33,325 bases of DNA, taken from the IMG/VR virus record IMGVR_UViG_3300011258_000882, positions 1 through 33,325 of that record; one strand, 5' to 3'. Positions 8,193 through 23,035 of the stretch are shown one piece after another. The first letter of the stretch is position 1. Each line of letters starts with the position of its first letter. Below the pieces are notes generated by a model. It was not told the DNA's origin. It did no database searches and was given only the letters and a program-made list of their open reading frames with translations. The stretch is from a virus. The position numbers and the translations under genes were made by a program.

Positions 8193-9221
8193 ATGGGATT
8201 TTTAGATAACTCAGGCGACATCATCCTTGACGCCGTGCTAACAGATGTAGGCAGAAAAAGGATGGCTGAAGGACAATTCAAAATTGCAAAGTTCGCCCTC
8301 GGCGATGACGAGATTGATTACTCGCTTTACAACGCAAACCACCCCTCTGGTTCCGCCTATTACGACCTTGAGATTCTACAGTCTCCGGTTATGGAAGCAG
8401 CCACAAAGCAAGCTTCTTCTATCAAATATGGATTGTTGAGCATCACCAGAACTGATTTGGTTTACATGCCGGTTCTTGAGCTTAACCAGAAATCTGGAAT
8501 AGATTCTGTGCTCAAGCATAACAACATCATTCTATTAGCTGCTAACAAGGCAACCTACAACACTCTCGCTAAAGATGCCGCCATCGGCGCATCAAAAGTG
8601 CTTGAGCCAAACACTCTAACTCCCGCTTCTAAGGTTATTGTTGAGTCTGGAATAAGCTCGGCTGATAGACAGCCCACAAGAGAAAACAGAGACAACATGG
8701 TCGTTAGCACCAATTTACTAGACCTACAGTTCAGCGTCAAATTCGACAGCAGGTTTGTTTCCAGTTTGGTCTCGGTGCAACCAAGACAAGATCAGAGCTT
8801 CGCTAACAACACAGACGGCTCTAGAAACATCACCCTAACAGCATTCGCTAGAAAGAAGGCTGTCTCTGCAACACAATTCATGGATAACTACGTGACTGCG
8901 ATTGCCGATGGTCTTGAAGACCTAGTGCTTCAGTACACAACCGACACTGGCGGTGATGCAACCGGCACAAACCTATCACAACTCGACGGTCCTCGCGGCG
9001 GAATGACTGCTATGTCTTTCGCACCTAGCACAGAAATTAACGCACAAGGCACCGCATCCCCAAGTTACTACACACTCTACGGCAGCACTGGTGTCGCTGC
9101 CGCTACTCTAGGCTTCACAGCCGGAACCTATGATTACATCGACACCACAATCTACGTCCAAGGTTTGACTACAGGCGCTTCAATTCAGTTGCCAGTCAGA
9201 ATCGTAAGACAACAGGCTTAA
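8193..9221 (+). CDS. Virion structural protein with N-terminal LTxxG/DD domain
   Basis: 342 aa. The N-terminus (DAVLTDVGRKRMAEGQFKIA, then FALGDDEIDY) follows the same pattern as residues 10-45 of the protein at 675: hydrophobic-D-x-x-LT-x-x-G-[KR], then G, then [FY]A-x-x-DD and Y. The remainder is Thr/Ser-rich and probably beta-structured, with no catalytic motif. The ribosome site GAGGAGAGAGGAAA directly upstream is strong and an ACTATTTA motif lies just before it, so high expression is plausible. I infer an abundant tail component; neither a sheath nor a tube signature is recognisable. Confidence 0.8.
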   Translation: MGFLDNSGDIILDAVLTDVGRKRMAEGQFKIAKFALGDDEIDYSLYNANHPSGSAYYDLEILQSPVMEAATKQASSIKYGLLSITRTDLVYMPVLELNQKSGIDSVLKHNNIILLAANKATYNTLAKDAAIGASKVLEPNTLTPASKVIVESGISSADRQPTRENRDNMVVSTNLLDLQFSVKFDSRFVSSLVSVQPRQDQSFANNTDGSRNITLTAFARKKAVSATQFMDNYVTAIADGLEDLVLQYTTDTGGDATGTNLSQLDGPRGGMTAMSFAPSTEINAQGTASPSYYTLYGSTGVAAATLGFTAGTYDYIDTTIYVQGLTTGASIQLPVRIVRQQA

Positions 9222-9233
9222 TCGGAGAACTAA

Positions 9234-10277
9234 ATGCCTATCAACTATGAAGTTATAAACCCAAACACAGACGTAGCAACAACAAAGACGCTACTTCACG
9301 AGGTCATCCCACTAACAGGAACAATCGTTAGTGGAACTTACGGGACATTCCCGAACGACGACAACATCAAGAACTACTCACACGGCATGTTTCAGTCTGT
9401 TTATGACTATCCTTACCTAAGTTCTTCAGCCAACCACATCTTTGACATCTCTGTTGGTTTTGACGAAAGTTCTCCGCTTTCTGGCTCAACTAACGCAGTT
9501 CAGGAAAAGAAGAAAATAAACATGTACAACCAGTTCTCCCAGGTTATGCTTGGCTACACTGGTTCTGCAAACCGCGTCCGTCTTTTTGAGTCTGATTTAC
9601 AACTAGACGAGAGTGCCGCAGACGTTATGAAAGAGGTTGTTTTCGTCAACCTTTCTCGCCTACTCACCAAGGACCAAATCAAGAAGGGCTCAGTGAGCCT
9701 AACAGTCGGCACGGCATCCTGGGCTGATCCTTTCTCTGGAACCAAGACCTTTGTTGATGACGAAGCCACAAATAACGGCGGCACCCTAAACACCGCAGCC
9801 GGCGACTATGGAATCCTAACTGGTTCAGATGGCGTTGGCGGAATAGTGTTCTATCAAGCAGGCGTCATGGTCCTTACCAGTTCTATCTGGGCAGGAACAA
9901 CTGACTTCTTTAGTCAGTCCGCGACAGCCAGGACATTTGACCAGCAATTGGTTTCTGGCTCCATCTCTGGCTCTGCCGACGCTCTACGCCACAGACTAAA
10001 AAATCTTCAGTTTAACAACACAACCGAGATTAACTCTTCTGTTTACTTCTGTCGTGCTTCACACAACAAGTTTAACTACTCAAGTAACCCGACTTACTTA
10101 AACTCAAGCGCAATTCGTGTAAAGAACCAGAACAGAGACAATCCCCCGGTCTCTTACATCACAACAATCGGTCTTTACAATTCACAGAATGAACTCTTGG
10201 CTGTCGCCAAATTGTCTGAGCCTCTAAAGAAGGACCCGACAAACGAACTAACTCTCCGCGTCAGGCTGGACTACTAA
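9234..10277 (+). CDS. Virion structural protein, paralogue of the next gene
   Basis: 347 aa, Ser/Thr/Asn-rich and probably beta-structured. Several blocks align in order with the protein at 10288: IKKGSVSLT against IKPGSLSLK, GGIVFYQAGVMVLTSS against AGVAMYEEGFLLLTGS, FNYSSNPTYL against VNYSNNPTFL, and the C-terminus (LTLRVRLDY against LSFKLKLDI). This shows a duplication. A ribosome site CGGAGA precedes the ATG. A surface or tail structural protein is likely from context; no enzymatic residues were noticed. Confidence 0.8.
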   Translation: MPINYEVINPNTDVATTKTLLHEVIPLTGTIVSGTYGTFPNDDNIKNYSHGMFQSVYDYPYLSSSANHIFDISVGFDESSPLSGSTNAVQEKKKINMYNQFSQVMLGYTGSANRVRLFESDLQLDESAADVMKEVVFVNLSRLLTKDQIKKGSVSLTVGTASWADPFSGTKTFVDDEATNNGGTLNTAAGDYGILTGSDGVGGIVFYQAGVMVLTSSIWAGTTDFFSQSATARTFDQQLVSGSISGSADALRHRLKNLQFNNTTEINSSVYFCRASHNKFNYSSNPTYLNSSAIRVKNQNRDNPPVSYITTIGLYNSQNELLAVAKLSEPLKKDPTNELTLRVRLDY

Positions 10278-10283
10278 GGAGGG
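10276..10283 (+). promoter_or_regulatory. Strong ribosome binding site AAGGAGGG
   Basis: A near-perfect anti-16S complement that overlaps the stop codon of the previous gene and sits 4 nt before the ATG at 10288. It fixes that start and suggests efficient translation. Confidence 0.7.
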
Positions 10284-10287
10284 CGAG

Positions 10288-11595
10288 ATGTCCCTCAAGA
10301 AGTTCGGACGCAGCGATGTAATAAGAAATGCTATGAGGGCTTATCCCCATAGCAGTTTCTTGGTTTATTCTTCTTCGGTCTATTATGATCATAGACCGAT
10401 AGAAGCAGGCGGCTTTAACGGAACCGACATCTTGTCGGCTTCCGGTGGCTTGAGTTTGTTTGAGTACAATGTCGATAAAAGCGGAAGCACGACATTCTCG
10501 ACTTCGGCATCTGCCGTGCAAAGAACGGAAGCCGGTCTTACATTTGCCGGCACAAATGCCCCAATAATTCCTTATGTTTTTAAAGCCGGCAACAAACAAT
10601 TCTTAAAACCAAATTCTAGAACATTGTCCATAGATAGTGTTACTGGTAATCGGACTGGTGGCATCCAAGAAGTCTCAGATGATTACGCCAGAATGAACAT
10701 AGGCTCTGTGCTTACAGGCTCTTCTTATGTGATGTCGGCATCTATAACAAGAGAATTGATGCTCACAGCAGGAGGCAAATCAAGTCCCGCCTCCAATGTC
10801 TACAGCACAAATTATCCTCACTACTATTCCCTACGAAACTCTCTTAACTTCTACGGCACACGCTCTCCTCATTACTTTGTTTCTAGTTCAAACTGGAACA
10901 AAGACGAACAAGACATAAACCTAATCTCTGTTCCAAAGATCTTTTATGGATCTCGGATTAAGCCGGGCAGCCTCTCGCTCAAGTTCTACATCACCGGCTC
11001 CTTGGTCGGAGAATTAAAAGACACAAAATACAATGGAGAGTTAATCCAAGTTGGTCCAGAAGGCTCGACCGGTTCAGGATCAGTCGCAGGCGTGGCGATG
11101 TACGAAGAAGGCTTCCTACTACTAACAGGCAGTTGGGATCTTACTGACGGTGTGAGTTATGGTTTTGATTCATCCACAACAGGTTCGTGGACCAGATTTG
11201 CCTGCGGCGCAAACGACGGTATAAGCTGCACGACATCTGCCTCATTCGATCTTTCCTTCAAAGGACACACAGAGACCCAGGTTCTAACGATGTTTGCCCA
11301 CGCACGTAGGGGCGAAGTAAACTACTCCAACAACCCGACGTTCTTGGATTATGGGCAGGATAGGCTACAACTTACATCTTCCAATGTCTATTTGGAAAAC
11401 GATGCCGTCACAATTAAAAACACCGTCTCTTCCAGCTACACCGGCTTTGACGCCCCCTTTGAGAGACAAGTCTACGTCTCGCGTGTTGCTATCTATGACG
11501 ACGACAAGAAGCTTATTGGAGTAGCAACTCTCGCCAACCCAGTGCTCAAGAAAGAAGCACAAGACTTATCATTCAAGCTTAAATTGGACATCTAA
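10288..11595 (+). CDS. Virion structural protein, paralogue of the previous gene
   Basis: 435 aa, Ser/Tyr/Gly-rich. It is the longer member of the pair with the gene at 9234, sharing the ordered blocks described there, including NYSNNPTFL and the hydrophobic C-terminal strand LSFKLKLDI. The N-terminus differs between the two (SDVIRNAMRAYPHSSFLVYS here), so divergence is concentrated there. The last base of its TAA is the first base of the next ATG. Likely a repeated ring or fibre component of the virion; the exact place is unknown. Confidence 0.8.
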   Translation: MSLKKFGRSDVIRNAMRAYPHSSFLVYSSSVYYDHRPIEAGGFNGTDILSASGGLSLFEYNVDKSGSTTFSTSASAVQRTEAGLTFAGTNAPIIPYVFKAGNKQFLKPNSRTLSIDSVTGNRTGGIQEVSDDYARMNIGSVLTGSSYVMSASITRELMLTAGGKSSPASNVYSTNYPHYYSLRNSLNFYGTRSPHYFVSSSNWNKDEQDINLISVPKIFYGSRIKPGSLSLKFYITGSLVGELKDTKYNGELIQVGPEGSTGSGSVAGVAMYEEGFLLLTGSWDLTDGVSYGFDSSTTGSWTRFACGANDGISCTTSASFDLSFKGHTETQVLTMFAHARRGEVNYSNNPTFLDYGQDRLQLTSSNVYLENDAVTIKNTVSSSYTGFDAPFERQVYVSRVAIYDDDKKLIGVATLANPVLKKEAQDLSFKLKLDI

Positions 11596-11936
11596 TGAAA
11601 CCTATTATAGTGGTGTCTCCCACATTCACAAAACTGATGTCTATAGTCATAGATGTCTACGCAATCACAATCTTTCCGTTTATCATCTCAAAAGAAAAGA
11701 TGAGCGAAATAACCCTCAACCATGAAACAATTCACATCGAGCAGCAGAAAGAACTACTTGTGCTTGGCTTCTATCCTCTTTACTTTTTCTATTATCTTTT
11801 GGGATTTATTAAATATAAAGATAAACAACAAGCATATTATAGGATACCATTTGAACAAGAAGCTTACGAAAACGATCAGAACCCAGATTACTTAAAAGAT
11901 CGTAAAGCGTATAGCTGGAGGAAGTTTAAGGTTTGA
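11595..11936 (+). CDS. Small membrane protein with HExxH zinc-protease motif
   Basis: 113 aa. Residues 41-51 read LNHETIHIEQQ, a clear HExxH zincin motif (H43, E44, H47), and a downstream FEQEAYEND (E87 or E89) could supply the third metal ligand. A hydrophobic segment at about 53-72 (GFYPLYFFYYLLGF) lies between the two halves. I recall similar short HExxH membrane proteins annotated as hypothetical in Bacteroidetes, which could hint at the origin but does not prove it. It sits between structural genes and the resolvase and overlaps both. Possible roles are envelope proteolysis or lysis; these are inferences. Confidence 0.7.
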   Translation: MKPIIVVSPTFTKLMSIVIDVYAITIFPFIISKEKMSEITLNHETIHIEQQKELLVLGFYPLYFFYYLLGFIKYKDKQQAYYRIPFEQEAYENDQNPDYLKDRKAYSWRKFKV

Positions 11937-12472
11937 TTTTAGGAATAGACGTATCGACAAGCATCACAGGCTTTGCGGTAACCGACATGGAAGGAAAAAT
12001 AGTCCTTTCCGAAGCCTGTGACCTTCGTAGAGACAAGGATTTTTTCTCCAAGTCTCTGACGATAAGGGCAAAAATTCTGGACATTCTGGAGTCTTATAGC
12101 GGCAAAATAGAGCATATCTATATCGAGCAACCATTCACGTTCTTTAACTCTGGAGGTTCCTCGGCAAAAACGATGGCGACCTTACAGAGATTTAACGGGG
12201 TTGTGTCTTGGATGGTCTATGAGTGCTTCGAGATCCAGCCAGAATACTTGGGAGCAACACAAGCACGCAAACTTGTCGGCATCAAAGTACCTCGCGGAAC
12301 AAAAGCCAAGAAGGTCGTGATGGAGCACCTGCTCGCTACTGACCCAGATTTTACAATCCAGCGCACTCACAAGGGCAACCCCAAGCCACAAGAGTTCGAC
12401 AGAGCCGACGCCCTCATTATCGCGAGAGCAGGACTCAAAGACATAGAGAATAAAGCACTTGCCGCCAGTTGA
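11933..12472 (+). CDS. RuvC-like Holliday junction resolvase
   Basis: 179 aa, RNase H-fold nuclease. It begins with the RuvC-type strand ILGIDVSTSITGFAV (D6), has a second acidic site IEQP (E65) and a C-terminal EFDRADALIIARAG (D156, D159), which is the expected acidic set for two-metal cleavage of branched DNA. Such enzymes debranch replicating phage DNA before packaging. The start is TTG at 11933, overlapping the preceding stop as TTGA, with GGAGG at 11917-11921 as ribosome site. The primase follows 21 nt later in the same frame. A T4 endonuclease VII-type enzyme is unlikely because no zinc site is seen. Confidence 0.87.
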   Translation: MILGIDVSTSITGFAVTDMEGKIVLSEACDLRRDKDFFSKSLTIRAKILDILESYSGKIEHIYIEQPFTFFNSGGSSAKTMATLQRFNGVVSWMVYECFEIQPEYLGATQARKLVGIKVPRGTKAKKVVMEHLLATDPDFTIQRTHKGNPKPQEFDRADALIIARAGLKDIENKALAAS

Positions 12473-12493
12473 TCGTCGTGTTATCTTACATGT

Positions 12494-13432
12494 ATGAACA
12501 AAACAGCCGCTACCAAAATCCTTCATGAAACTCTTGGAGGCTACTGGGACAAGGGATCAGAGCTTCTTTTCTCGTGCCCGTCGTGCGGTCACCACAAGCG
12601 CAAATTCTCTGTTAACTTGGACAAAAATGTGTTTAAGTGTTGGGTTTGTGATTACTCTGGTCGCAACATTAGGCGTGTTATTAGACGCTTTGGTCCGTAT
12701 ACTCAACTACAAAAATGGGACCAGATTACAGACCGGACAGATATTTCACGCTTTGCTGAACTCTTTATGGACGAAAGCGATGAAGAGATCGAAGCAAAGC
12801 TTGAACTCCCGCAAGAATTCGTAAGTCTCGCAAACAAGAATCTACCTCTGTCTGCTAATAGAGCACTACGCTACCTCACCGAGAGAGGAATAACAAGAGA
12901 AGACATCCAGCGTTGGAAGATTGGCTTCTGCTATGATGGAGAGTACGGCGGCAGGATCATCGTGCCGTCTTTCGGAATGACGGGTTATCCCAATTATTTT
13001 ATTGCCCGATCCTATGTGGGGCACGGGATGAAATACAAGAACCCACGATCATCAAAGAATGTGGTGTTCAATGATTTGTTTACAAACTGGAACAAGGATT
13101 TGGTAATTGTTGAGGGCGTCTTCGATGCTATCCGAGCAGGCAACTCTGTTCCAATCTTGGGCTCTACTCTACGCCAGGATTCCAATCTGTTGCGCAACAT
13201 CGTTCGAAACGACACGCCCTGTTACATCGCCCTAGATCCCGACGCAGCCAACAAAGAGCGCAGGATTATCCAGACGCTCCTGCGCTATGATGTGGAGTTA
13301 CACAAGATTGATGTTAGGGGCTATGATGATGTTGGCGAGATGCCGCAAGAAGTCTTTATGGAACGCAAAGCAAACGCGACGCTCATCGACAGAGACAATT
13401 ATGTTCTGCTAGACTTGCTATCAGCAGTTTAA
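12494..13432 (+). CDS. DNA primase (CHC2 zinc finger plus TOPRIM)
   Basis: 312 aa. An N-terminal zinc ribbon (CPSC at 28-31, CWVC at 49-52) is followed by a primase core and a TOPRIM domain with LVIVEGVFDAI (E206) and YIALDPDA (D247, D249), the metal-binding residues for RNA primer synthesis. The length fits stand-alone phage primases without a fused helicase; no helicase is present in the window. It lies directly after the resolvase in a replication block. No Shine-Dalgarno sequence is evident before the ATG, and the frame is continuous with the resolvase apart from that gene's TGA, so expression may depend on coupling. Confidence 0.92.
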   Translation: MNKTAATKILHETLGGYWDKGSELLFSCPSCGHHKRKFSVNLDKNVFKCWVCDYSGRNIRRVIRRFGPYTQLQKWDQITDRTDISRFAELFMDESDEEIEAKLELPQEFVSLANKNLPLSANRALRYLTERGITREDIQRWKIGFCYDGEYGGRIIVPSFGMTGYPNYFIARSYVGHGMKYKNPRSSKNVVFNDLFTNWNKDLVIVEGVFDAIRAGNSVPILGSTLRQDSNLLRNIVRNDTPCYIALDPDAANKERRIIQTLLRYDVELHKIDVRGYDDVGEMPQEVFMERKANATLIDRDNYVLLDLLSAV

Positions 13433-13442
13433 AGGAAGAGTT

Positions 13443-13922
13443 ATGAATAAAAAGATAAAGCATTACATCAACGATGTTCTTTCTGAAAGAAGAGCGGAGT
13501 TCGGCGGCAAAGCAGTTTGCCCCTTTGCTGCGCCTGAACTTGAAGCAGATAGACTGATGATAGCCAAGGTCGGCGATAAGAGCCTAATCGATCTGATAGA
13601 TGAATTTACAGACTCTGATTATGAGAGTGCCCTGTTTATTATCAAAGAGGACATCCCCGCCGAACAAACAAAGAAGTTCCAACACTTCGTCAACAGGTTA
13701 TTGAAAGACAGAGGGGCAGAGAACTACAAGAGCATTTGTTTTAATCCAAATGACGAGGTAGCAGTCGAAGAATTCAATCCGCGCGCTCTTGCCCCCCACT
13801 TTATGGTAAACATAGCAGATAAGAAAGTCTTATCAAAAGCCCACCGCGCCCTAAAAAAGACAAATTATTATGATAAATTACCAGATAACTATCGAAAGTT
13901 CCTCAATCTTAAAGAAAAGTAA
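13443..13922 (+). CDS. Hypothetical protein with CPFA motif
   Basis: 159 aa, soluble and charged. The motif AVCPFAAPELEADRLMIAKV near residues 24-43 is reminiscent of the CPFA signature in DUF1415-type proteins; that resemblance is from memory and weak. The ribosome site AAAGGAAGAG lies just before the ATG, and the gene follows the primase by 10 nt, so it is probably part of the replication unit. An ACTATTTA-containing gap follows. No function is assigned. Confidence 0.7.
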   Translation: MNKKIKHYINDVLSERRAEFGGKAVCPFAAPELEADRLMIAKVGDKSLIDLIDEFTDSDYESALFIIKEDIPAEQTKKFQHFVNRLLKDRGAENYKSICFNPNDEVAVEEFNPRALAPHFMVNIADKKVLSKAHRALKKTNYYDKLPDNYRKFLNLKEK

Positions 13923-13930
13923 ACTATTTA
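13923..13930 (+). promoter_or_regulatory. Recurring ACTATTTA intergenic motif, copy B
   Basis: ACTATTTATT lies immediately after the TAA of the 159-aa gene and 29 nt before the tagged gene at 13960. The reverse strand reads AATAAATAG, close to the T4 late box. This is one of five gap copies; a promoter or processing role is inferred from recurrence. Confidence 0.4.
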
Positions 13931-13959
13931 TTGCGAGATTTTGAAGGAACTAGTCATTA

Positions 13960-14823
13960 ATGAAACACACTTTTACAAAGAAACAAATAAAAAACATTAT
14001 CCTTGAAGAGATGCAGGCAGATCTTCTCATCGAGAACACCACAAATCAGATTATTGAAGAGGGCGTGCTCGACACTATAAAGAATCTAAAAAACAAATTC
14101 TTTCCAAACAAAAGTGATGATCAAGTAGAGAAAGAAGTAGACGCCGTCGAATCAAACCCAGAAATTCTAAACAAAATGCCTAGATCAAAGAGGATAGGCA
14201 TTCTATTTTTAGTTGGAATGCTGGGTGGTGCTGTAGAACAAGGCGTCTTTGACTACAGCGAACTCAGTTCTGACGCAGCCGCCGACGCTCAAAGAGTAAG
14301 ATCTTCACTCCAACAAAGCGCCGAGCAATCTAAAGATGTCCAGAACTTTATGCAGATGGCTGCTGCTGAAGCAGAAAGCGGCACCGCTACAACACCAGAA
14401 GAAGTGGACGCTAAGATCAAGGAAATTATCAAGACCTATGGCGGTTCTGTAGATGTTGCTCCCATTTCACCCGGGCGCGGAATCTTCATTGGAGGAGATC
14501 CAAGTAAAGGTAACCTAGAGGGGTTTGCCTATGTGCCTGCTTCTCAAATTCCAGATGATGAAACAATGCCTTTTATGGGAATTTCAAAGAAAGACTACGA
14601 AACCTTATTAAGAGCAACCTTTCTATCTGGAGAGGGCGGGGATGAAAGATTAGAAAATCTTGTTATGGGCAAGGGCACAAAAGGCTCTTCTGGTTTCTGG
14701 GCTTACGACAACAACAAGCTCTTCCAGGGATACACCGCAGACTCTCCCTATGCTATGTTGCCGCTTGAGTGGTCAGTTGCCTACGAACTCTTGAATAAGA
14801 GAAAGAGCAAAGGACGCCTCTAA
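13960..14823 (+). CDS. Tagged protein, putative capsid-targeted cargo
   Basis: 287 aa, function unknown. The N-terminus (MKHTFTKKQIKNIILEEM) is an amphipathic Lys/Glu helix like those of five or six other proteins in the window. It is followed by IIEE|G at residues 31-35, which fits the T4 gp21 cleavage consensus (I/L)xE|G. After that site the protein reads GVLDTIKNLK, echoing GFLDRLKARA after the equivalent site in the gene at 28835. A hydrophobic segment lies at about 80-100 (RIGILFLVGMLGGAV). I infer a prohead-targeted internal protein processed by the phage protease; the activity of its globular part is unknown. Confidence 0.7.
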   Translation: MKHTFTKKQIKNIILEEMQADLLIENTTNQIIEEGVLDTIKNLKNKFFPNKSDDQVEKEVDAVESNPEILNKMPRSKRIGILFLVGMLGGAVEQGVFDYSELSSDAAADAQRVRSSLQQSAEQSKDVQNFMQMAAAEAESGTATTPEEVDAKIKEIIKTYGGSVDVAPISPGRGIFIGGDPSKGNLEGFAYVPASQIPDDETMPFMGISKKDYETLLRATFLSGEGGDERLENLVMGKGTKGSSGFWAYDNNKLFQGYTADSPYAMLPLEWSVAYELLNKRKSKGRL

Positions 14824-14827
14824 TCGC

Positions 14828-14856
14828 TTGACAAATCGCCCTCCCTGCGTTATATT
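14828..14856 (+). promoter_or_regulatory. Near-consensus sigma70-type promoter
   Basis: TTGACA (14828-14833), a 17-nt spacer, then TATATT (14851-14856), which is perfect at -35 and 5 of 6 at -10. It starts 5 nt after the previous stop. Transcription would begin near 14863, just ahead of a strong ribosome site (14864-14869). It is the best bacterial-type promoter I see here and would drive the micro-ORF, the Mre11-Rad50 fusion and the FtsZ-like gene, probably early in infection. Confidence 0.75.
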
Positions 14857-14875
14857 ATAGGTGAAGGAGATAGTA

Positions 14876-14968
14876 ATGATCAAGTTTTGTTTTAACGCTT
14901 TGGTAGATGGCTTCACGATGTATGTCGGCTGGTTCGCTGGCATTGCCTTTTACAACATTTGTTTCTAG
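14876..14968 (+). CDS. 30-aa hydrophobic membrane micro-protein
   Basis: ATG to TAG, 30 codons (MIKFCFNALVDGFTMYVGWF and onward), almost entirely hydrophobic and aromatic, long enough for one membrane span. AAGGAG at 14864-14869 is ideally spaced 6 nt from the ATG, and a near-consensus promoter lies directly upstream, so this is the first gene of a transcript. It precedes the Mre11-Rad50 fusion by 12 nt. Possibilities are a leader peptide, a host-inhibitory early peptide or a membrane anchor; nothing favours one. Confidence 0.55.
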   Translation: MIKFCFNALVDGFTMYVGWFAGIAFYNICF

Positions 14969-14971
14969 CCT

Positions 14972-14975
14972 GGAG
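14972..14975 (+). promoter_or_regulatory. Ribosome binding site that fixes a TTG start
   Basis: GGAG five nt before TTG at 14981. The translation from this TTG begins a few residues before the first nuclease motif strand, where Mre11-family proteins normally start, so TTG rather than a later ATG is chosen. Confidence 0.55.
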
Positions 14976-14980
14976 ATAAC

Positions 14981-17900
14981 TTGAAACGCCCACCAGTTAA
15001 GATCGCACACATTGCTGATACTCACATCAAGAATCTGAAGTATCACGAAGACTACCGCGCCTGCTTTGAGCAGATGTACGAGACCTTGCGAGAGCAAGAC
15101 GTAGACTACATCATTCATTGCGGCGACATCGCACACACAAAGACGCAAATCTCACCAGAATTTGTAGAGATGGCGTCCGACTTTTTCAGCAATCTAAGTA
15201 AGATTGCGACCACTTTTGTTATTTTAGGAAACCACGACGGCAACCTAAAGAACAGCAGCCGCCAAGATGCTATCACACCAATCGTCCAGGCGCTTGATAG
15301 CCCTTACATCAGACTGCTAAAGAACTCTGGCGAGACCTCGCTTGCTTACGGTAATGTCGTCCTGAATGTCTTGTCGGTTTTCGACCGAGACAACTGGGTC
15401 CAACCTACCGATCCAGACAAGATTAACATCGCCCTCTATCACGGCGCAATCTCCAACTGCCAGACAGACGCTGGCTGGACGATGGAGCACGGCGAAGACA
15501 ACCTCTCAATCTTTGAAGAGTTTGACTTTGCGATGCTTGGCGACATCCACAAGCGCCAGTTTCTTGATGATGACGGGCGCATTTACTACGCAGGCTCCAC
15601 AGTCCAACAGAACCACGGAGAGAGCGACGACAAAGGCTTCTCTATCTGGACAATTGGTTCTAAAGATGATTGGGACATTGAGCACTTTACGCTCCAGAAC
15701 CCCCGACCATTTATCACAGTAGAACTAACCCCAACAGGTAAGATTCCACGCAGAGCATCGGTGCCCAGTAGAGCACGCCTGCGCATCGTCAGCGACAACA
15801 ACCTATCGCTCGATGTGATGCGCAAGGCTGTTGATGTTGCTCGCCATAAGTTTAAGCCAGAGTCGATCTCATTCTTAAACAGATCTGCTGGTAAGCGCGG
15901 CAATGTCGAAGAAATCACAGATGGGATTGGAATCCAGAACCTCCGAGATCCAGAGATCCAGCAGGAACTTATTTCAGAATACCTCAAAGACTATCAGGTC
16001 AAGCCCGATGTTATGTCTACAATTTACGAACTCAATTCAAAATACAACCAGCAAGTAGAAGCGAAAGAGGATGTTAGTCGTAATGTGAATTGGGAACTTG
16101 TAAACTTTGAGTGGTCTAATCTGTTTAACTACGGAGAAGACAACTCTATCGATTTCCGCAAAGTAAACGGCATCACGGGCATCTTTGGTAAGAACTTCTC
16201 AGGCAAGTCATCTATCATCGACGCAATTCTATTTACAATCTTTAACACCACAAGCAAGAACGAGCGCAAGAATGTTAATGTCGTAAATCAGAATCGCGAC
16301 TGGGGTGGTGGAAAGGTCACAATCGCGATTGGCGATAAGTCATTTACAATCCACCGCAAGGTCGAGAAGTACGAAAAGAAATCAAAGGGCGAAACCTCTA
16401 TTGAGGCAAAGACTCATCTTGATTTTTCTGTCTATGACCCTGTTACAGATGAGACTACATCACTAAACGGCACTACCCGCAACCAGACTGACGCGAACAT
16501 CCGTAAGCACTTTGGGACGATTGACGACTTTCTTATCTCGTCTCTTTCATCACAGCACGGCGCACTTGCGTTCATCAACGAGGGTTCGACTAAGCGTAAA
16601 GAGATTATCGCTAAGTTCCTAGACCTCCAGTTCTTCGATAAGAAGTTCAAGTTTGCTAAAGAGGACGCTCAGTCATCCAAGGTTCTAATCAAAAAACTAC
16701 AGGGTCGTGACTATGATAATGAGGTTCAGAAGGCTCAGGACGCCCTAGAGCAGCATAAGGCAGCAATCTTGTCGGTCGAAGCTGATAAGATCAAGCTTGA
16801 AGCAAAGCTCACCTTCGCTAGCCAAAATGTCCGTGACCTCTCTGCTAAGATCTCCAACATCCCAACGGATGTGATTGACATCTTCGAAGTTCAGTCCGAA
16901 ATCAAAAAGACAAAAAATAAGATAATTTCTTTATCAGATTCAATCATTGATGATGTGAGCAGACTACATAGTGAAAGAGAACGATTTGACAAGATCTCAA
17001 ATCTTCTAGAAACTCTAGATTATGATAATCTTACAAGTTCTCTTGTGAGCATTGAAGAAGCTGAAAACAGCCTTCAAACTCACACACAACTGATAGAGGT
17101 TGCGACTGAAAAGAAAAAGTTATTAGAAGACATTCCGTGCGGCACAACCTACCCTGCTTGTAAGTTCATTCGTGATGCCCATGTAGCCACAGCAGTTATT
17201 CCTGAAACGGAAAGCAAGATTGAAGAGCTACAGGACAGACTCTCTAACTTAAACCCACAGGTTGTTAGAGATCACCTAGGCAAGTATCGTAAGCTTGAAA
17301 AAAAGCAAAGCGAAACTGATGGTCTTATCAAAGACCTACAGTTGAGTATCGAGCGCCGCAAGTCTGCTCTTGATAGGCACAAAGCCTTGATGGACGAGCT
17401 AGCACAAAAGCAAGCTTCTTATAACGACAATAAAGAAGCAATTGAAAATCTAGAAAAACTACTAAAGGAGAAAGAACTATATGTCAAAGAAACGCAATCC
17501 GTTAAGGAACAAGTTGAGTCAAATAGCCAGAAGAAGATTGATTTTTACAAATCTCTCGGATCAGAAGAACAACGAATCCAAGACCTCAAAGAAAGAAGAC
17601 TAGAGTTTGAGACAATCCAGTCGGAGTATTCATCGTATGATCTATTCTTGCGGTGTATGCATCCGAACGGGATTGCTTACGACATCATTAAACAGAAGTT
17701 GCCTGTAATCAACGAAGAGATCGCAAAGATTCTAGCGAATGTTGTAGATTTTGAAATCTTTTTTGAGACTACAGGCAACAAGTTTGACATTTTTATCAAG
17801 CACCCCAAGCACGAGGCACGCCCTATTGAGATGGCGTCAGGCGCAGAAAAGACTATGGCTGCTATGGCTATTCGTCTTGCTCTGCTCTCCGTGTCTTCTC

Positions 17901-18106
17901 TGCCTAAGAGCGACCTGTTCATCTTAGATGAGCCAGGAACTGCTTTGGACGAAGAGAATATGGCTGGATTTATTCAGATCTTGGGACTAATTAAGGTGTA
18001 TTTCAAGAACGTCTTGCTGATTTCTCACCTTGATTCTCTCAAAGATTGTGTAGATATGCAGATTGTGATTGAGAAAGAAGCAGGTTTTGCAAAGGTAAAT
18101 CAATGA
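14981..18106 (+). CDS. Mre11-Rad50 (SbcD-SbcC, T4 gp47-gp46) fused in one polypeptide
   Basis: 1041 aa. The N-terminal half is an Mre11/SbcD nuclease: DTH (13-15), GD (48-49), GNHD (83-86), H154 and GDIH (187-190) are the dimetal phosphoesterase motifs. A linker at about 325-385 leads into a complete Rad50/SbcC ATPase: Walker A GKNFSGKSS (403-411), long coiled coil, a hook region with C720 and C727, a second coil, signature SGAEK (953-957), Walker B LFILDEP (979-985) and H-loop H1016. In T4 these are separate genes 47 and 46; here one continuous frame encodes both. The role is resection of DNA ends in recombination-dependent replication. The start is TTG; the stop overlaps the FtsZ-like gene. 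Confidence 0.93.
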   Translation: MKRPPVKIAHIADTHIKNLKYHEDYRACFEQMYETLREQDVDYIIHCGDIAHTKTQISPEFVEMASDFFSNLSKIATTFVILGNHDGNLKNSSRQDAITPIVQALDSPYIRLLKNSGETSLAYGNVVLNVLSVFDRDNWVQPTDPDKINIALYHGAISNCQTDAGWTMEHGEDNLSIFEEFDFAMLGDIHKRQFLDDDGRIYYAGSTVQQNHGESDDKGFSIWTIGSKDDWDIEHFTLQNPRPFITVELTPTGKIPRRASVPSRARLRIVSDNNLSLDVMRKAVDVARHKFKPESISFLNRSAGKRGNVEEITDGIGIQNLRDPEIQQELISEYLKDYQVKPDVMSTIYELNSKYNQQVEAKEDVSRNVNWELVNFEWSNLFNYGEDNSIDFRKVNGITGIFGKNFSGKSSIIDAILFTIFNTTSKNERKNVNVVNQNRDWGGGKVTIAIGDKSFTIHRKVEKYEKKSKGETSIEAKTHLDFSVYDPVTDETTSLNGTTRNQTDANIRKHFGTIDDFLISSLSSQHGALAFINEGSTKRKEIIAKFLDLQFFDKKFKFAKEDAQSSKVLIKKLQGRDYDNEVQKAQDALEQHKAAILSVEADKIKLEAKLTFASQNVRDLSAKISNIPTDVIDIFEVQSEIKKTKNKIISLSDSIIDDVSRLHSERERFDKISNLLETLDYDNLTSSLVSIEEAENSLQTHTQLIEVATEKKKLLEDIPCGTTYPACKFIRDAHVATAVIPETESKIEELQDRLSNLNPQVVRDHLGKYRKLEKKQSETDGLIKDLQLSIERRKSALDRHKALMDELAQKQASYNDNKEAIENLEKLLKEKELYVKETQSVKEQVESNSQKKIDFYKSLGSEEQRIQDLKERRLEFETIQSEYSSYDLFLRCMHPNGIAYDIIKQKLPVINEEIAKILANVVDFEIFFETTGNKFDIFIKHPKHEARPIEMASGAEKTMAAMAIRLALLSVSSLPKSDLFILDEPGTALDEENMAGFIQILGLIKVYFKNVLLISHLDSLKDCVDMQIVIEKEAGFAKVNQ

Positions 18107-19239
18107 GTAACGACGACGAGTTTGGCTTCTTGCCACCAGCAGAAGCACCCCCATCATTCAACCAAGAAAAGGACCACTTCCACGAAGAAGTAGAAGCGGA
18201 AGACTTTGGTATGGTTGAGGACTTCGGATTACAGATGGAATACTCTGACGAAGATATGCTCCCCGAGAACACAGCCCCATCATCTATAAATGTGGGCTTT
18301 GTTGGTGTTGGTGGCGGCGGCAACAAGATGGTGAATGCTATGATTGAGTTGGGCTTCAACAAGACCCTGTTAGTCAATAGCACAGGCAAGGACATTCCAA
18401 AGAATGTAGAAGAAGAACACGTCGTTCTTATCCCTGACTCTGACGGCATCGGCAAGAACATCTCCTACGGCAAAGAAGTTCTAACACAGAACGGCGCAGT
18501 TGTAGAAGATGCTCTACGCATCAAGTTTGGTAAGGTTGACTGGCTGTTCGTTATGGCTGGTGGCGGTGGAGGCACAGGTTCATCCGTAGTCGCCCTACAG
18601 CCCGTCTTTGAGCGCTACCTACAATCTGTTCAGGCGAGCGGTAAGGTCGTTTACATCGTCTCTTGGCCAACAGCGCAGGAGAATCTTAACCCTACAATCG
18701 CCCGTAATGCCCTGTCGCTCGCCAACGATGTTACCCCCTACCCACACATCATTCTAGATAACGAGAGAGCCACGCGCCTCCTACGCGGTCGCATAGGGAT
18801 GCTGGGAATGTATCCAGTCGCAAACACGCAGTTTGCTAAGTCATTCGCACAGATCCTCAAACTATCTACCGAAGACTCTCCGATCCAGTCGTTTGATTCC
18901 AAGGACTTGGAGACTTGCTTCAGCAAGGACGGGCGAGCCTTTATTGGTTCTACGATGATCAAAGATCCGAACACAGGCAAACTCGGCACAACTATTATGC
19001 ATAACTGCATGAACCGCTCTGCTTGTCCGCCACCCAAGGGCAAAGCCGCAGCAGGCTCACTTATCCTTGTAGCAAGTGAAGAGATGGTCGCCGACCCTCG
19101 CATCTCCAAGCACCTTGAATCTGCGATTGCTTATGTTGGTGGTCGCTGCGAGACACTTTTCTCTGGGGTTTATGTCCGAAAGAATGTCCCTGGACTGATT
19201 GCGATACTATCTATGAATGGGATCGAAAAAGGAAAATAA
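18103..19239 (+). CDS. FtsZ/tubulin-like GTPase
   Basis: 378 aa. After an acidic, probably disordered N-terminus (1-60), it has the FtsZ nucleotide loop VGVGGGGNKMVN (67-78), the tubulin signature GGGGGTGSS (153-161) and a synergy-loop-like segment SFDSKDLETCF (263-273). D265 and D268 in that segment match the FtsZ T7-loop aspartates needed for GTP hydrolysis between subunits, so the protein is likely polymerising and active. The short C-terminus lacks the FtsA/ZipA-binding tail. It looks closer to FtsZ than to PhuZ or TubZ in the T7 loop. ATGA overlap couples it to the Mre11-Rad50 gene. Filaments for phage DNA or capsid positioning, or interference with host division, are possible. Confidence 0.87.
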   Translation: MSNDDEFGFLPPAEAPPSFNQEKDHFHEEVEAEDFGMVEDFGLQMEYSDEDMLPENTAPSSINVGFVGVGGGGNKMVNAMIELGFNKTLLVNSTGKDIPKNVEEEHVVLIPDSDGIGKNISYGKEVLTQNGAVVEDALRIKFGKVDWLFVMAGGGGGTGSSVVALQPVFERYLQSVQASGKVVYIVSWPTAQENLNPTIARNALSLANDVTPYPHIILDNERATRLLRGRIGMLGMYPVANTQFAKSFAQILKLSTEDSPIQSFDSKDLETCFSKDGRAFIGSTMIKDPNTGKLGTTIMHNCMNRSACPPPKGKAAAGSLILVASEEMVADPRISKHLESAIAYVGGRCETLFSGVYVRKNVPGLIAILSMNGIEKGK

Positions 19240-19243
19240 ATAA

Positions 19244-20065
19244 ATGAAAATAACAAAAGCCAAACTAAAACAAATTATCAAAGAAGAACTCCAAGTAGTC
19301 CTCACGAATGAAGAGGTAGAGGAGATGTTTGGCGAAGAAGTCCGCGCCGAAGTAGAGGCGATGGAAAGCAAAGAAATCACAAAAGAAGCAATAATGGAAG
19401 AGATCCAATCTGACCCCGCGCTTCTTGACGCAATCGACAAGCTAATAGATTCCATTGATGGACTAGATGTTAGCATCGATTTCTTATCCTCAGCATTCAC
19501 AGGCGAGTCTGGTGTCTCTATTGGCGCAGCACAGCGACAACTTGGTCGCGCTTATAGACCAAAAGCTCGCCCGATGCCCGAGCCTGTTAGAGAATCAGAG
19601 CAGTTTAGAGATCAGCAAAAGATGGATGATGCCCAGGCTGCTGCCGGGCAGCAAATGTCTTTTGAAAGATGGATAGCCACTGCTTACAATAATGGTGCTC
19701 AGATCGATGATAACTCTCCAAATCCCTACGATGCTTGGATGAGCGGACAATCACCAGAAGACTATGCTAACGCATTAAGCGAGGGCTTGTTTGGTGGAGA
19801 ATTTGGAAAGAAAAAAGAAACACCCACCACTCGCAAGCCAAGCAAGACAGATAAGAAGACACCCCAAGACAAGCTTGATAGATTCTATTCTGCTGTAAAC
19901 AAGAAGATGGAAGAGAAAAAACTCTCTAAACCTGAAAAAAAGGAAAAAGAGAGAGTAGTTAAAGGTATGAAGAAATCTAAGGGTGACTTCAAGCAACGCT
20001 ATGGCGATGACGCCGAAAGCGTAATGTACGCAACGGCGACAAAGATCGCAAAGGATAAAAAATGA
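19244..20065 (+). CDS. Tagged protein with C-terminal RYGDxxxSVMYATATK domain
   Basis: 273 aa. It starts with MKITKAKLKQIIKEELQ, the recurring N-terminal helix. An LSE|G sequence at 178-181 fits the prohead protease consensus and separates an N-terminal acidic part from a Lys-rich C-terminal part. The last 25 residues (QRYGDDAESVMYATATKIAK) match a short domain I remember from T4-like cyanophage proteins of unknown function. The ribosome site AAAAGGAAAA precedes the ATG, and the stop overlaps the next gene as ATGA. A structural or packaged role is inferred; no enzymatic motif was seen. Confidence 0.7.
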   Translation: MKITKAKLKQIIKEELQVVLTNEEVEEMFGEEVRAEVEAMESKEITKEAIMEEIQSDPALLDAIDKLIDSIDGLDVSIDFLSSAFTGESGVSIGAAQRQLGRAYRPKARPMPEPVRESEQFRDQQKMDDAQAAAGQQMSFERWIATAYNNGAQIDDNSPNPYDAWMSGQSPEDYANALSEGLFGGEFGKKKETPTTRKPSKTDKKTPQDKLDRFYSAVNKKMEEKKLSKPEKKEKERVVKGMKKSKGDFKQRYGDDAESVMYATATKIAKDKK

Positions 20066-20114
20066 AAATCAAAAAGTCAGAACTACTCGCTCTAATCAAA
20101 GAAGAGATTATGGA
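20062..20114 (+). repeat. Tag-coding direct repeat, copy 1
   Basis: This DNA encodes the first MKIKKSELLALIKEEIMD tag. It differs from the copy at 20380 at a handful of mostly third-codon positions and shares an identical 26-nt block (20089-20114). Confidence 0.75.
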
Positions 20115-20862
20115 CGATCCGTCCGACGACAACACTATTCCAGCAGAAATGAAGAAAGAGGGAACAGCACCCTCTATAGAAATTGACACTGTTGACTTCT
20201 CACCACGCCACCCGGCTGCGATTGACCGCCTTGAGCTTGCCGGTTTCGACTTGAGCGGAATGAGGCGTCACAATGGCGGCTTCAGGATTACACTAAACAA
20301 AGAAGAGGCTGCCAAGTTGAGAGACCACATGGCGAAAAACCCATCGGCTTTCTTCGAATCTAAAAAGGGACAAAACACAATGAAAATAAAGAAGTCAGAG
20401 CTATTGGCTCTAATCAAAGAAGAGATTATGGATGAGATGCGTGGTCTCACGATGATGGACGACCCCATGGACGACGATGCCATTCCAGCAGGAATGGAGC
20501 ACGGCGGTGCTATGGATCAGGTCGGTAAAGAAATAGACGACATGATTACAGTTGAAATGGATGATGCCATCTCTATGCTCTCCAACTATCTCGTAACATC
20601 ACAAGCTAGCAGAGACCCAAGAAAAGCAGCCGCTATGGGAATGGAGATTTTGCATAACGCTGGCTTGCGTTTCCCCGATCAATCAACACTTGAGAGAATG
20701 ATTGCGGCAGATGATGGTATAATGCAAGAAGGCATAGACGCTGAATCTATGCAGGTTGTCGCTGATGTTGCCCAGAAGATGGCACCGCTAATCGGCGTTA
20801 TGTCCCTACCGGTTCTCATTGGACTTATCTACGAGAAACTAAAAGAAATGGGTGCTAAATGA
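20062..20862 (+). CDS. Protein with duplicated N-terminal tag, possible gene fusion
   Basis: 266 aa. MKIKKSELLALIKEEIMD occurs at residue 1 and again from Met107, each followed by an Asp-rich DDPxDD and an IPAxM segment. The protein therefore looks like two tagged proteins joined. The first half contains HPAAIDRLELAGFDLSG; the second half ends in a hydrophobic helix (PLIGVMSLPVLIGLIYEKL). The internal ATG at 20380 has a weak ribosome-like AAGGGA upstream, so a 160-aa second product is possible. The coupled ATGA starts and stops on both sides show operon membership. Function unknown. Confidence 0.7.
   Translation: MKIKKSELLALIKEEIMDDPSDDNTIPAEMKKEGTAPSIEIDTVDFSPRHPAAIDRLELAGFDLSGMRRHNGGFRITLNKEEAAKLRDHMAKNPSAFFESKKGQNTMKIKKSELLALIKEEIMDEMRGLTMMDDPMDDDAIPAGMEHGGAMDQVGKEIDDMITVEMDDAISMLSNYLVTSQASRDPRKAAAMGMEILHNAGLRFPDQSTLERMIAADDGIMQEGIDAESMQVVADVAQKMAPLIGVMSLPVLIGLIYEKLKEMGAK
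20380..20432 (+). repeat. Tag-coding direct repeat, copy 2
   Basis: Second copy, 318 nt downstream and in frame, with the identical 26-nt block at 20407-20432. Protein-level identity with mainly synonymous DNA changes indicates purifying selection on the tag after duplication. Confidence 0.75.
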
Positions 20863-21062
20863 TGAGCAAAGAACAAAGACAAGCTCTACTAGACAGAGGC
20901 ATCCAAAAACTAACTTCCCGCAAACTACTTGTGTGGCTTACTGCTACAGGTCTTATGGCTTGGGGCGGACTAGAATCAGCAGACTGGGTTATTATCTCTG
21001 GTCTTTATCTCGGCGGTCAATCCGTAATTGACGCTATTGTAAAGCTCAAGGGACTTGATTGA
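20859..21062 (+). CDS. Holin-like small membrane protein
   Basis: 67 aa with two predicted membrane segments (about 24-38, LVWLTATGLMAWGGL; and 43-60, WVIISGLYLGGQSVIDAI) joined by a short polar turn, with a charged N-terminus and a Lys-containing C-terminus. Size and topology suit a class II-type holin, which would perforate the inner membrane at lysis. It is followed by spanin-like genes, supporting a lysis cassette, although no endolysin is nearby. A general small membrane protein remains possible. The start overlaps the previous stop as ATGA. Confidence 0.6.
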   Translation: MMSKEQRQALLDRGIQKLTSRKLLVWLTATGLMAWGGLESADWVIISGLYLGGQSVIDAIVKLKGLD

Positions 21063-21439
21063 AAGAAAAGATTCTAGCATTCTGCTTAAAACACTGGAAG
21101 GAGATCGGGCTTGTCCTGCTCCTTCTTGTTGTGTTTGGTAAGTCGCAGTATGATGTGCGCAACATTATCAAAGCATACGAAGTCTCGCAGCAATCGCTAA
21201 AGACCCAGATAGAAGAACTACAGGGCATCCACGCAGAAGAGCTACAACAGCGAGATGAAGCTCTTGAAGAATACAGAATAAGAAATGAGAAGCTTGAGAT
21301 GCGCTATCAAGATGCTTTGATTGATTTATCAAATGAGATTGATAAAAAGAAGGAGCGTGTTATAAGAAACTACAGGGAAGACAAAGAAGCCCTCATAGTT
21401 CAGATAGAAGACATCTACGGATTCACTTATGTTCCTTAG
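21059..21439 (+). CDS. Inner-membrane coiled-coil protein, Rz-like (i-spanin candidate)
   Basis: 126 aa. An N-terminal membrane anchor (about 14-28, EIGLVLLLLVVFGKS) is followed by a long charged coiled coil to the C-terminus, the architecture of Rz-type inner-membrane spanins that fuse the two membranes during lysis of Gram-negative hosts. The start is TTG, overlapping the holin-like stop as TTGA. The next gene begins inside its 3' end. No lipobox partner is apparent, so the spanin call rests on topology and position. Confidence 0.55.
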   Translation: MKEKILAFCLKHWKEIGLVLLLLVVFGKSQYDVRNIIKAYEVSQQSLKTQIEELQGIHAEELQQRDEALEEYRIRNEKLEMRYQDALIDLSNEIDKKKERVIRNYREDKEALIVQIEDIYGFTYVP

Positions 21440-21848
21440 TTTATTATTTATGATCTCGACTGCTGGCGCAAGCCCAGAGTTTTCTATCGTTGATGAAGGG
21501 ATGCCGTCTCCCATAGAGGGCGTTGTCTTCAATCCCGAGGCTTTGTCCGAGGTTCTTACAGCACCACAGCGCGCGAAAGAAGAGTGCGAGATCGAATGGA
21601 CGAGAACTCTTGAGAAAAAAGAAAGCGATTTTACTCTCGAATTGAGACAAGAGGTGATAAGATATAACTCTCTCAATAAAAAGCATAACACTATGGTAAT
21701 AGAGAAAGACACCGAAATCGCAGAACTCCAGAAGATCATAAAGAAACAATCTCCAGCCTATAAATGGGCGTGGTTTGCTGGTGGTATTGCCCTAGGCGGT
21801 GCTACTTATTATGGTATCCAGCAAACTCTAAATGTCAATAATCCATAG
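21429..21848 (+). CDS. Exported coiled-coil protein with C-terminal membrane segment
   Basis: 139 aa. It begins with a short signal-peptide-like sequence (MFLSLLFMISTAGASPEF), with a plausible cleavage after AGA, continues with a coiled-coil region and ends with a hydrophobic, Gly-rich membrane-type segment (WAWFAGGIALGGATYYGI, about 113-130). It overlaps the preceding Rz-like gene, resembling nested spanin arrangements, but there is no lipobox cysteine, so it is not a classic o-spanin. A lysis or envelope role is inferred from topology and position. Confidence 0.55.
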   Translation: MFLSLLFMISTAGASPEFSIVDEGMPSPIEGVVFNPEALSEVLTAPQRAKEECEIEWTRTLEKKESDFTLELRQEVIRYNSLNKKHNTMVIEKDTEIAELQKIIKKQSPAYKWAWFAGGIALGGATYYGIQQTLNVNNP

Positions 21849-22068
21849 AATACAACCACCGATGAGCGTATCTACTCCGCTAGGGGAAGGATGGGCTCAT
21901 TTTCTTATTGACTATGGGCACGATTGGAATACTTGTTGGATTATCCAGATTTACCAGACAGGCGAAATAAAACACTTTGATGCTAATGACATAAGAATAA
22001 ATGGTAATCCAACTTACGGAACAGAGAAGCCAGACTTTTTTACACAAGACACAACAAAAGGCAATTAA
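21832..22068 (+). CDS. Small conserved-type phage protein
   Basis: 78 aa. The core LGEGWAHFLIDYGHDWNTCW, followed by TGEIKHFDANDIRI, resembles short proteins widespread in large phages that have no known function (from memory). The ATG at 21832 overlaps the previous gene by 17 nt; an in-frame ATG at 21862 is an alternative start that would remove ten residues, and neither has a clear ribosome site. The stop is immediately followed by the next ATG. Confidence 0.6.
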   Translation: MSIIHRIQPPMSVSTPLGEGWAHFLIDYGHDWNTCWIIQIYQTGEIKHFDANDIRINGNPTYGTEKPDFFTQDTTKGN

Positions 22069-22449
22069 ATGAGTAAAGACCAAGATTACATCGTCAAGGT
22101 AGAACAAGCCATAGCAAAGAAGTATGGCGACGAGACTATCCAGAATCCCAAAGCAGATTGGGACGAGACCAAGGAAAAAGTCTATCTAGAGCAGATGCGA
22201 GATCTCTACAAGAAGCAAAAGAAAAATGACGAAGCCAACGATAAAGTAGAACTAAATGGAATAAAGGTTTCAAGAAAACTACTTAATAGGGAATCCAAGA
22301 CAGGTTGTCCTGTTTGTGGAGCATTTTCACACTCTGTCCGTGATGATGTGTCTTTTGTAAAGTTTGAATGCTGCTACAAGTGCTACATCAAATGGATAGA
22401 AGGAAGAGAAGAACGTTGGAATGACGGGTGGAGACCCAAACAAGACTAA
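22069..22449 (+). CDS. Zinc-ribbon protein upstream of packaging genes
   Basis: 126 aa. The N-terminal half is a charged helix; the C-terminal half has a probable zinc ribbon, CPVC (80-83) with CCYKC (101-105), then a Trp-rich end. Such modules bind nucleic acid or stabilise small proteins. It starts directly after the previous stop and ends just before an ACTATTTA gap that opens the packaging block. The function is unknown; regulator or packaging accessory are possible. Confidence 0.65.
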   Translation: MSKDQDYIVKVEQAIAKKYGDETIQNPKADWDETKEKVYLEQMRDLYKKQKKNDEANDKVELNGIKVSRKLLNRESKTGCPVCGAFSHSVRDDVSFVKFECCYKCYIKWIEGREERWNDGWRPKQD

Positions 22450-22451
22450 CG

Positions 22452-22459
22452 ACTATTTA
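22452..22459 (+). promoter_or_regulatory. Recurring ACTATTTA intergenic motif, copy C
   Basis: ACTATTTATTT, 17 nt before the ATG at 22477 and directly ahead of its AAAGGA ribosome site. It is located where the packaging and head genes begin. The reverse strand reads AATAAATAG. One of five copies; its closeness to the ribosome site would leave a very short leader if it were a -10 type element on this strand. Confidence 0.4.
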
Positions 22460-22476
22460 TTTAAAGGAACATTATA

Positions 22477-23025
22477 ATGGCTACAGTTTACGAAATCATC
22501 CAGGGCTTATCACAAGCCGCAGCAAACGCCTACGACGGCGCAATGACCGAAGATGGCGAGCCCATCAAAGCAGGTCTAAAGAGAGAGGAGGGTGATCCCC
22601 TTATTGATAAGCGGGTGATGGACGGCTTCAATGTTAAGTTCCACGGTAACATGATGAGACTATCTTACATGTCCGAGGTCACTCTCAAAGAAGTTTACGC
22701 TAATGGCTTTGAGTCTGATGTTGAATCACAGATGGCTGAGATTGTAAAGTTCCTCAAGAAAGAAGCCCGCAAGATTACTGGCTCTACTGTTAAGCTCACC
22801 AAAGAAGGCGAGATCGACATCCGTGTTGAGAACTCCTCAAGAGTCCGTTCTTGGGTTACAGCCGTTATGGAATACAAAGTTGGCGGAATGGAAGAAGTCG
22901 CAGTTGTTGGCGAAGCCACCGAAGACAAACTTGCTGCTGGCTGGGAAGCCTTTATGAAGCAAGGTGGTCTGGGCAAGCGTCCCCCGAACGACAAGAGACC
23001 AAAGAACTCCGGCAAGAAAGACTAA
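22477..23025 (+). CDS. Unknown head/packaging-associated protein
   Basis: 182 aa, soluble, without recognisable catalytic motifs. The C-terminus is Lys/Pro-rich (KRPPNDKRPKNSGKKD), suitable for nucleic-acid contact. It sits 10 nt upstream of the large terminase, the usual position for a small terminase subunit, but the sequence does not show the helical DNA-binding pattern clearly. A virion protein is the alternative. The ribosome site AAAGGA and an ACTATTTA motif precede it, making it the first gene of the packaging unit. Confidence 0.65.
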   Translation: MATVYEIIQGLSQAAANAYDGAMTEDGEPIKAGLKREEGDPLIDKRVMDGFNVKFHGNMMRLSYMSEVTLKEVYANGFESDVESQMAEIVKFLKKEARKITGSTVKLTKEGEIDIRVENSSRVRSWVTAVMEYKVGGMEEVAVVGEATEDKLAAGWEAFMKQGGLGKRPPNDKRPKNSGKKD

Positions 23026-23035
23026 AGAAAGATGA

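Follow-up and report, generated by a model that had tools for sequence, protein, structure and literature searches.

The window analysed here is the entire 33,325-base virus record IMGVR_UViG_3300011258_000882 of IMG/VR, from an uncultured T4-like phage, and the element in question is a short unit on its + strand, in which a promoter precedes a 30-codon open reading frame (ORF) and the gene of a fused Mre11-Rad50 nuclease. On the sequence evidence, we put at about 0.75 the probability that this unit is an early operon within a late-type gene block, led by the gene of a tiny protein that acts at the host membrane. Related phages keep the same arrangement, which makes the tiny gene look real; it also looks undescribed, though of a familiar kind. 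In the proposed mechanism, host RNA polymerase would begin transcription at the sigma70-type promoter (14828-14856) shortly after infection, and the nuclease gene would be co-transcribed. The first product would be a tiny one-helix protein whose last 19 residues are probably embedded in the host inner membrane or lie on it. The nuclease would be the second product, and an overlapping tubulin-like gene would perhaps come next. The peptide gene would be an exchangeable cassette between the promoter and the nuclease gene. As for function, our guess is that the peptide would most likely be a small takeover or exclusion factor at the host membrane, independent of the nuclease.

The -35 hexamer TTGACA was read at 14828-14833 and, after a 17-nucleotide (nt) spacer, the -10 hexamer TATATT at 14851-14856; a consensus scan returned the same site. 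From the spacing, transcription would be expected to start at about 14863, and the expected leader is 13 nt. The Shine-Dalgarno (SD) sequence AAGGAG of the small ORF occupies 14864-14869, and its GGAG core is kept in 7/7 aligned relatives, the window included. The ORF (14876-14968) runs from the ATG at 14876 to the TAG at 14966-14968 and encodes MIKFCFNALVDGFTMYVGWFAGIAFYNICF (30 amino acids, aa). Starting from an in-frame GTG at 14861, the product would have 35 aa; the SD-to-ATG spacing favours the ATG as the start. Twelve nt after the small ORF, the nuclease gene begins with a TTG (14981), preceded by an SD GGAG at 14972-14975, and it extends to 18106 as the second gene of the unit. The initial annotation had described TTGACA-17-TATATT, a leader of about 13 nt, AAGGAG and a 30-codon ORF directly before Mre11-Rad50; read base by base, its coordinates and description were correct, including the position next to the nuclease gene.

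The promoter agrees with the consensus at 11/12 positions and is the best sigma70-type match in 9000-24000, where 22 promoter-like sites were found against 19.4 expected. Its support beyond chance comes from the relatives and not from the window alone. A promoter score of at least 12 within 250 nt upstream of Mre11-Rad50 was obtained in 25/59 non-redundant loci and upstream of 22/536 control genes of those loci, with a manually entered sigma70 matrix and control sites of which some may be real promoters. This count used 59/81 anchors, the window being excluded as redundant with locus L002. In seven relatives the consensus promoters were strand-biased, and ACTATTTA sites were strand-biased in 7/7 searched. 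The 191-kilobase (kb) relative G001 is the record of locus L014, where a homologue of the peptide is present; in G001, TTGACW-17-TANNNT has 52 occurrences on the coding strand and 5 on the opposite one. Many of the G001 promoters precede small, SD-led, early-type ORFs at ~39-55 kb, and the one preceding the peptide is isolated, at 134.8 kb. The window itself has one such site only, which looks like the G001 class; we infer an early promoter.

A second motif marks the surrounding genes. CTATTTA was found 12 times on the + strand and once on the - strand of the window, and the total of 13, against 4.48 expected, was reached in 0/100 shuffles. On a gene list picked by hand, it occupies 5/9 intergenic gaps of at least 15 nt (8167, 13924, 22453, 30603 and 32939, all +), and the promoter gap 14824-14875 is without it. 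The strand bias, the excess and this distribution over the gaps suggest that CTATTTA is a second, late-type class and a candidate late promoter element. The sigma70-type early promoters of T4-like phages are alike in the near-consensus TTGACA-17-TATATT, in the host-polymerase type and in a separate late-type motif on the same strand. However, the late-type motif here is CTATTTA instead of the TATAAATA that T4 late promoters carry, which has 0 occurrences in the window, and the early timing here is a prediction. Related phages have similar late consensus sequences, according to a review (PMC2988020).

Relatives of Mre11-Rad50 were gathered by three scans. From 221 loci, 17 were dropped for too little upstream sequence, and then near-identical upstream sequences were removed, which left 128 loci. 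By script, the promoter was directly at the gene in 39 loci, followed by a small ORF in 39, far in 25 and absent in 25; these classes are rough, and 7/39 rows of the promoter-then-small-ORF class have a non-hydrophobic ORF (L067, L192, L198, L202, L211, L215 and L225). A hydrophobic small ORF was located directly upstream of Mre11-Rad50 in 39/128 loci, compared with 19/569 control genes. Four loci missed by the hydrophobicity filter (L003, L009, L010 and L095) were added by hand, resulting in 43/128, thirty tiny and thirteen mid-sized. In the window's own clade, 10/10 leaves have a membrane-type ORF in the slot. Most small slot ORFs are preceded by an SD and start 13-27 nt downstream of the -10 box. 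The ATG of the tiny membrane ORF is very close to the -10 box in L048, L051, L052, L056 and L164, where its mRNA may be leaderless.

The content of the slot varies. The window holds the tiny gene (A), and five loci (L004, L006, L010, L011 and L012) hold a longer ORF (B) of 59-71 residues, in which there is one hydrophobic segment. Both are present in L003 and L005, as A then B, and in L013, as B then A; the Mre11 part of L013 shares 98.75% identity with that of the window. On the Mre11-Rad50 tree, the presence of a membrane ORF requires at least 13 changes. Judged by its contents, the slot between promoter and nuclease gene is exchangeable, since in some lineages the peptide is missing or a longer membrane ORF of another kind takes its place.

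Homologues of the 30-aa peptide were found in L002 and L060 (near-identical), L003, L014, L005, L009 and L013. A scan for the peptide family confirmed 6/65 pattern matches, and 6/6 were just upstream of Mre11-Rad50. Additionally, a related 31-aa group (L093, L094, L095, L097, L113, L135 and L168) aligns with the window group without internal gaps. The profiles of the two groups recognise each other above shuffled peptides, 7/7 at p<=0.013 and 6/7 at p<=0.010, with one cross-profile miss (L005, p = 0.153). A single family for all slot peptides was rejected: these two groups are related, other groups only partly, and several pairs score at chance. The peptide family had no match in Pfam or PHROGs. 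Among cultured phages, the window peptide had no match at an expect value (E) up to 10, and a 31-aa relative gave one match, at E = 10. A pattern search of bacterial genomes for the host returned 26 matches, none of them a relative. In Microcystis phage Mel-JY01, the ORF before the fused gene has 57 residues and no evident hydrophobic segment.

The reading frame carries its own signature. The ratio of non-synonymous to synonymous polymorphism (pN/pS) was 0.47 in frame and 0.67 and 1.09 in the other frames for the window group, and 0.32 in frame against 1.45 and 1.13 for the 31-aa group. By these values, the frame of the small ORF is under purifying selection. Its codon-usage index was 0.85 in frame; the two other frames gave 0.65 and 0.71, and eleven window genes ranged from 0.72 to 0.80. 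An antisense ORF at 14855-15148 (97 aa), which is open in L002 and L060 and differs at the far end in L013, was rejected as a shadow, as it is opposite conserved + frames. AlphaFold2 returned one helix at residues 2-29 with a mean predicted local distance difference test score of 92.1, a weak prediction for a single helix of 30 residues. With fewer than about 50 residues and a predicted helix long enough to span a membrane, the peptide has the size of a small single-helix protein, and it likely inserts in the membrane. Alternatively, the helix possibly lies on the membrane surface, because the window peptide is only moderately hydrophobic. The initial annotation had also proposed a host-like early promoter amid CTATTTA-marked genes and a tiny membrane protein as its first product. 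The former gains support from the strand-specific recurrence in relatives, before small early-type genes in G001, and the latter from the co-located homologues, the purifying selection, the predicted helix and the other hydrophobic slot peptides.

Several points weigh against this reading. One sigma70-type match was found in the window against 0.24 expected, and at least one appeared in 23/100 shuffles; the promoter match alone is within chance. The 128 loci are related to one another, and the hydropathy cut-off behind the 39/128 count was chosen after the window's value was seen. Between the window and L002, two changes in the peptide gene are non-synonymous and one is synonymous, and the pairs involving L005 are weakly constrained. 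The best 18-residue mean hydropathy of the window peptide is 1.38, and its summed insertion energy is positive, at 3.65 on a manually entered scale. Finally, in 38/128 loci the promoter adjoins Mre11-Rad50 directly and no membrane ORF was counted, so that the peptide is dispensable in many lineages. The same loci, together with the exchangeable slot, are why we guess that it acts independently of the nuclease.

An early operon with a working membrane peptide was weighed against other explanations. The small ORF could be a translation leader, in which ribosomes recruited by the strong SD translate it and then initiate again at the nearby TTG of Mre11-Rad50, so that the peptide itself matters little. 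The 12-nt gap and the weak TTG start agree with it, as do several relatives in which the upstream small ORF runs into the nuclease start, with an overlap of 4 nt or 1 nt. We nevertheless consider it unlikely, given the selection at the amino-acid level, the hydrophobicity kept in peptides of differing sequence and the 38 loci just mentioned; translational coupling and a working peptide are compatible. Slightly less likely again is a membrane anchor, a peptide that binds Mre11-Rad50 and holds the nuclease and the DNA ends at the host membrane. The close relatives of the peptide are found only next to Mre11-Rad50, and G18, G22 and A24, which do not vary among the 6 members of the window's group, would permit helix packing. 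However, many relatives have the same nuclease but no such peptide, and unrelated or longer membrane ORFs share the slot, in either order. T4 gp46/gp47 serve recombination-dependent replication. A wider form of the anchor, to which we give a little less credence still, would be an undescribed one-helix family of ~27-42 residues in an exchangeable early slot across an uncultured T4-like phage clade, tethering the nuclease and the DNA ends to the host membrane and organising recombination-dependent replication there.

A toxic peptide of the type I toxin-antitoxin kind would fit the length and hydrophobicity of known small hydrophobic toxins, and it is improbable: the only minus-strand promoter-like site there (14883-14854) would read away from the small ORF. 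No antisense RNA candidate and no suitably placed minus-strand promoter emerged, the latter from a consensus scan only. Very improbable is a cis-acting RNA, an attenuator or riboswitch with an incidental ORF. A terminator-like stem is present at 14922-14943, whereas the ORF shows in-frame selection; leader RNAs fold no better than shuffles in 6/6 tested (z -0.68 to 1.45), and no Rfam match was obtained in the window. We rate just as low a chance promoter-like sequence beside a chance ORF. Shuffling does yield such a promoter match, at the rate given above, but relatives repeat the place, the promoter and the start, and also the length, frame and hydrophobicity of the ORF.

The second gene of the putative early operon (14981-18106) is a single fused ORF of 1041 aa, with Pfam Metallophos at 7-174, SMC_N at 379-1002 and AAA_23, and with SbcD-like and SbcC-like PHROG matches. 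A single polypeptide thus combines phosphoesterase with SMC/ABC ATPase domains, as in Mre11/Rad50 fusions. The nearest cultured match of the nuclease has 29.7% identity. Mre11/Rad50 fusions have been published, and aquatic viral metagenomes are reported to contain them in abundance, on scaffolds that also carry primases and other phage-like genes (PMC3175470); the cited passages describe no promoter and no tiny gene upstream. The window also carries a T4-type portal gene, a terminase gene and RuvC-like and primase-like ORFs; the primase profiles match weakly, and the RuvC label is our own.

Further observations concern these neighbours. A Tubulin/FtsZ-like protein at 18103-19239 (+) overlaps the end of Mre11-Rad50; its Pfam Tubulin score equals the cut-off, and the PhuZ match is weak. 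In L002 and L060, a KITKxxL-type gene is directly 3' of Mre11-Rad50, so that the tubulin-like gene appears absent there. The same two loci have, in frame after the stop codon, a second, partial copy of the Mre11-Rad50 C-terminal part, which looks like a recombination scar. A KITKxxLKxIIKEEL-like N-terminal stretch is common to several otherwise different proteins of the window (13960, 19244, 20062 (twice), 28355 and 28835, +) and is perhaps a shared targeting signal. Upstream of the primase (12473-12494), only 6 nt separate the end of a -10-like box from the ATG, a leaderless layout with a weak promoter match (9.3); L053, L062, L072, L074, L075 and L076 have this layout with a strong match. 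Many relatives have TTGACA-18-TAGAAT-like sites 76-79 nt before the primase; we took these to be part of the RuvC-like coding region that precedes it and gave them no weight.

Small bacterial membrane proteins (PMC7549839) and small early phage membrane proteins (PMC11237401) are already known. The window peptide is like the small single-helix bacterial proteins, such as the 27-aa YohP (PMC7549839), in having about 30 residues and one helix, predicted and only moderately hydrophobic here, whereas here a phage gene is placed at an early-type promoter and has no Pfam or PHROG family. Gp11 of phage PhiNM1 (PMC11237401), an early small membrane protein acting on the host, is alike in kind; here the product is predicted, the phage and the host are different, and no homology is claimed. 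No paper on this tiny gene was found in one open-access literature library.

Combining promoter, position and frame-level selection can reveal tiny membrane-type genes of uncultured phages where homology search is too weak. The analysis gives an early/late promoter layout, as proposed from sequence, for a phage clade whose nuclease has a best cultured match of 29.7% identity, and it provides a defined 30-residue candidate for an effect on the host membrane.
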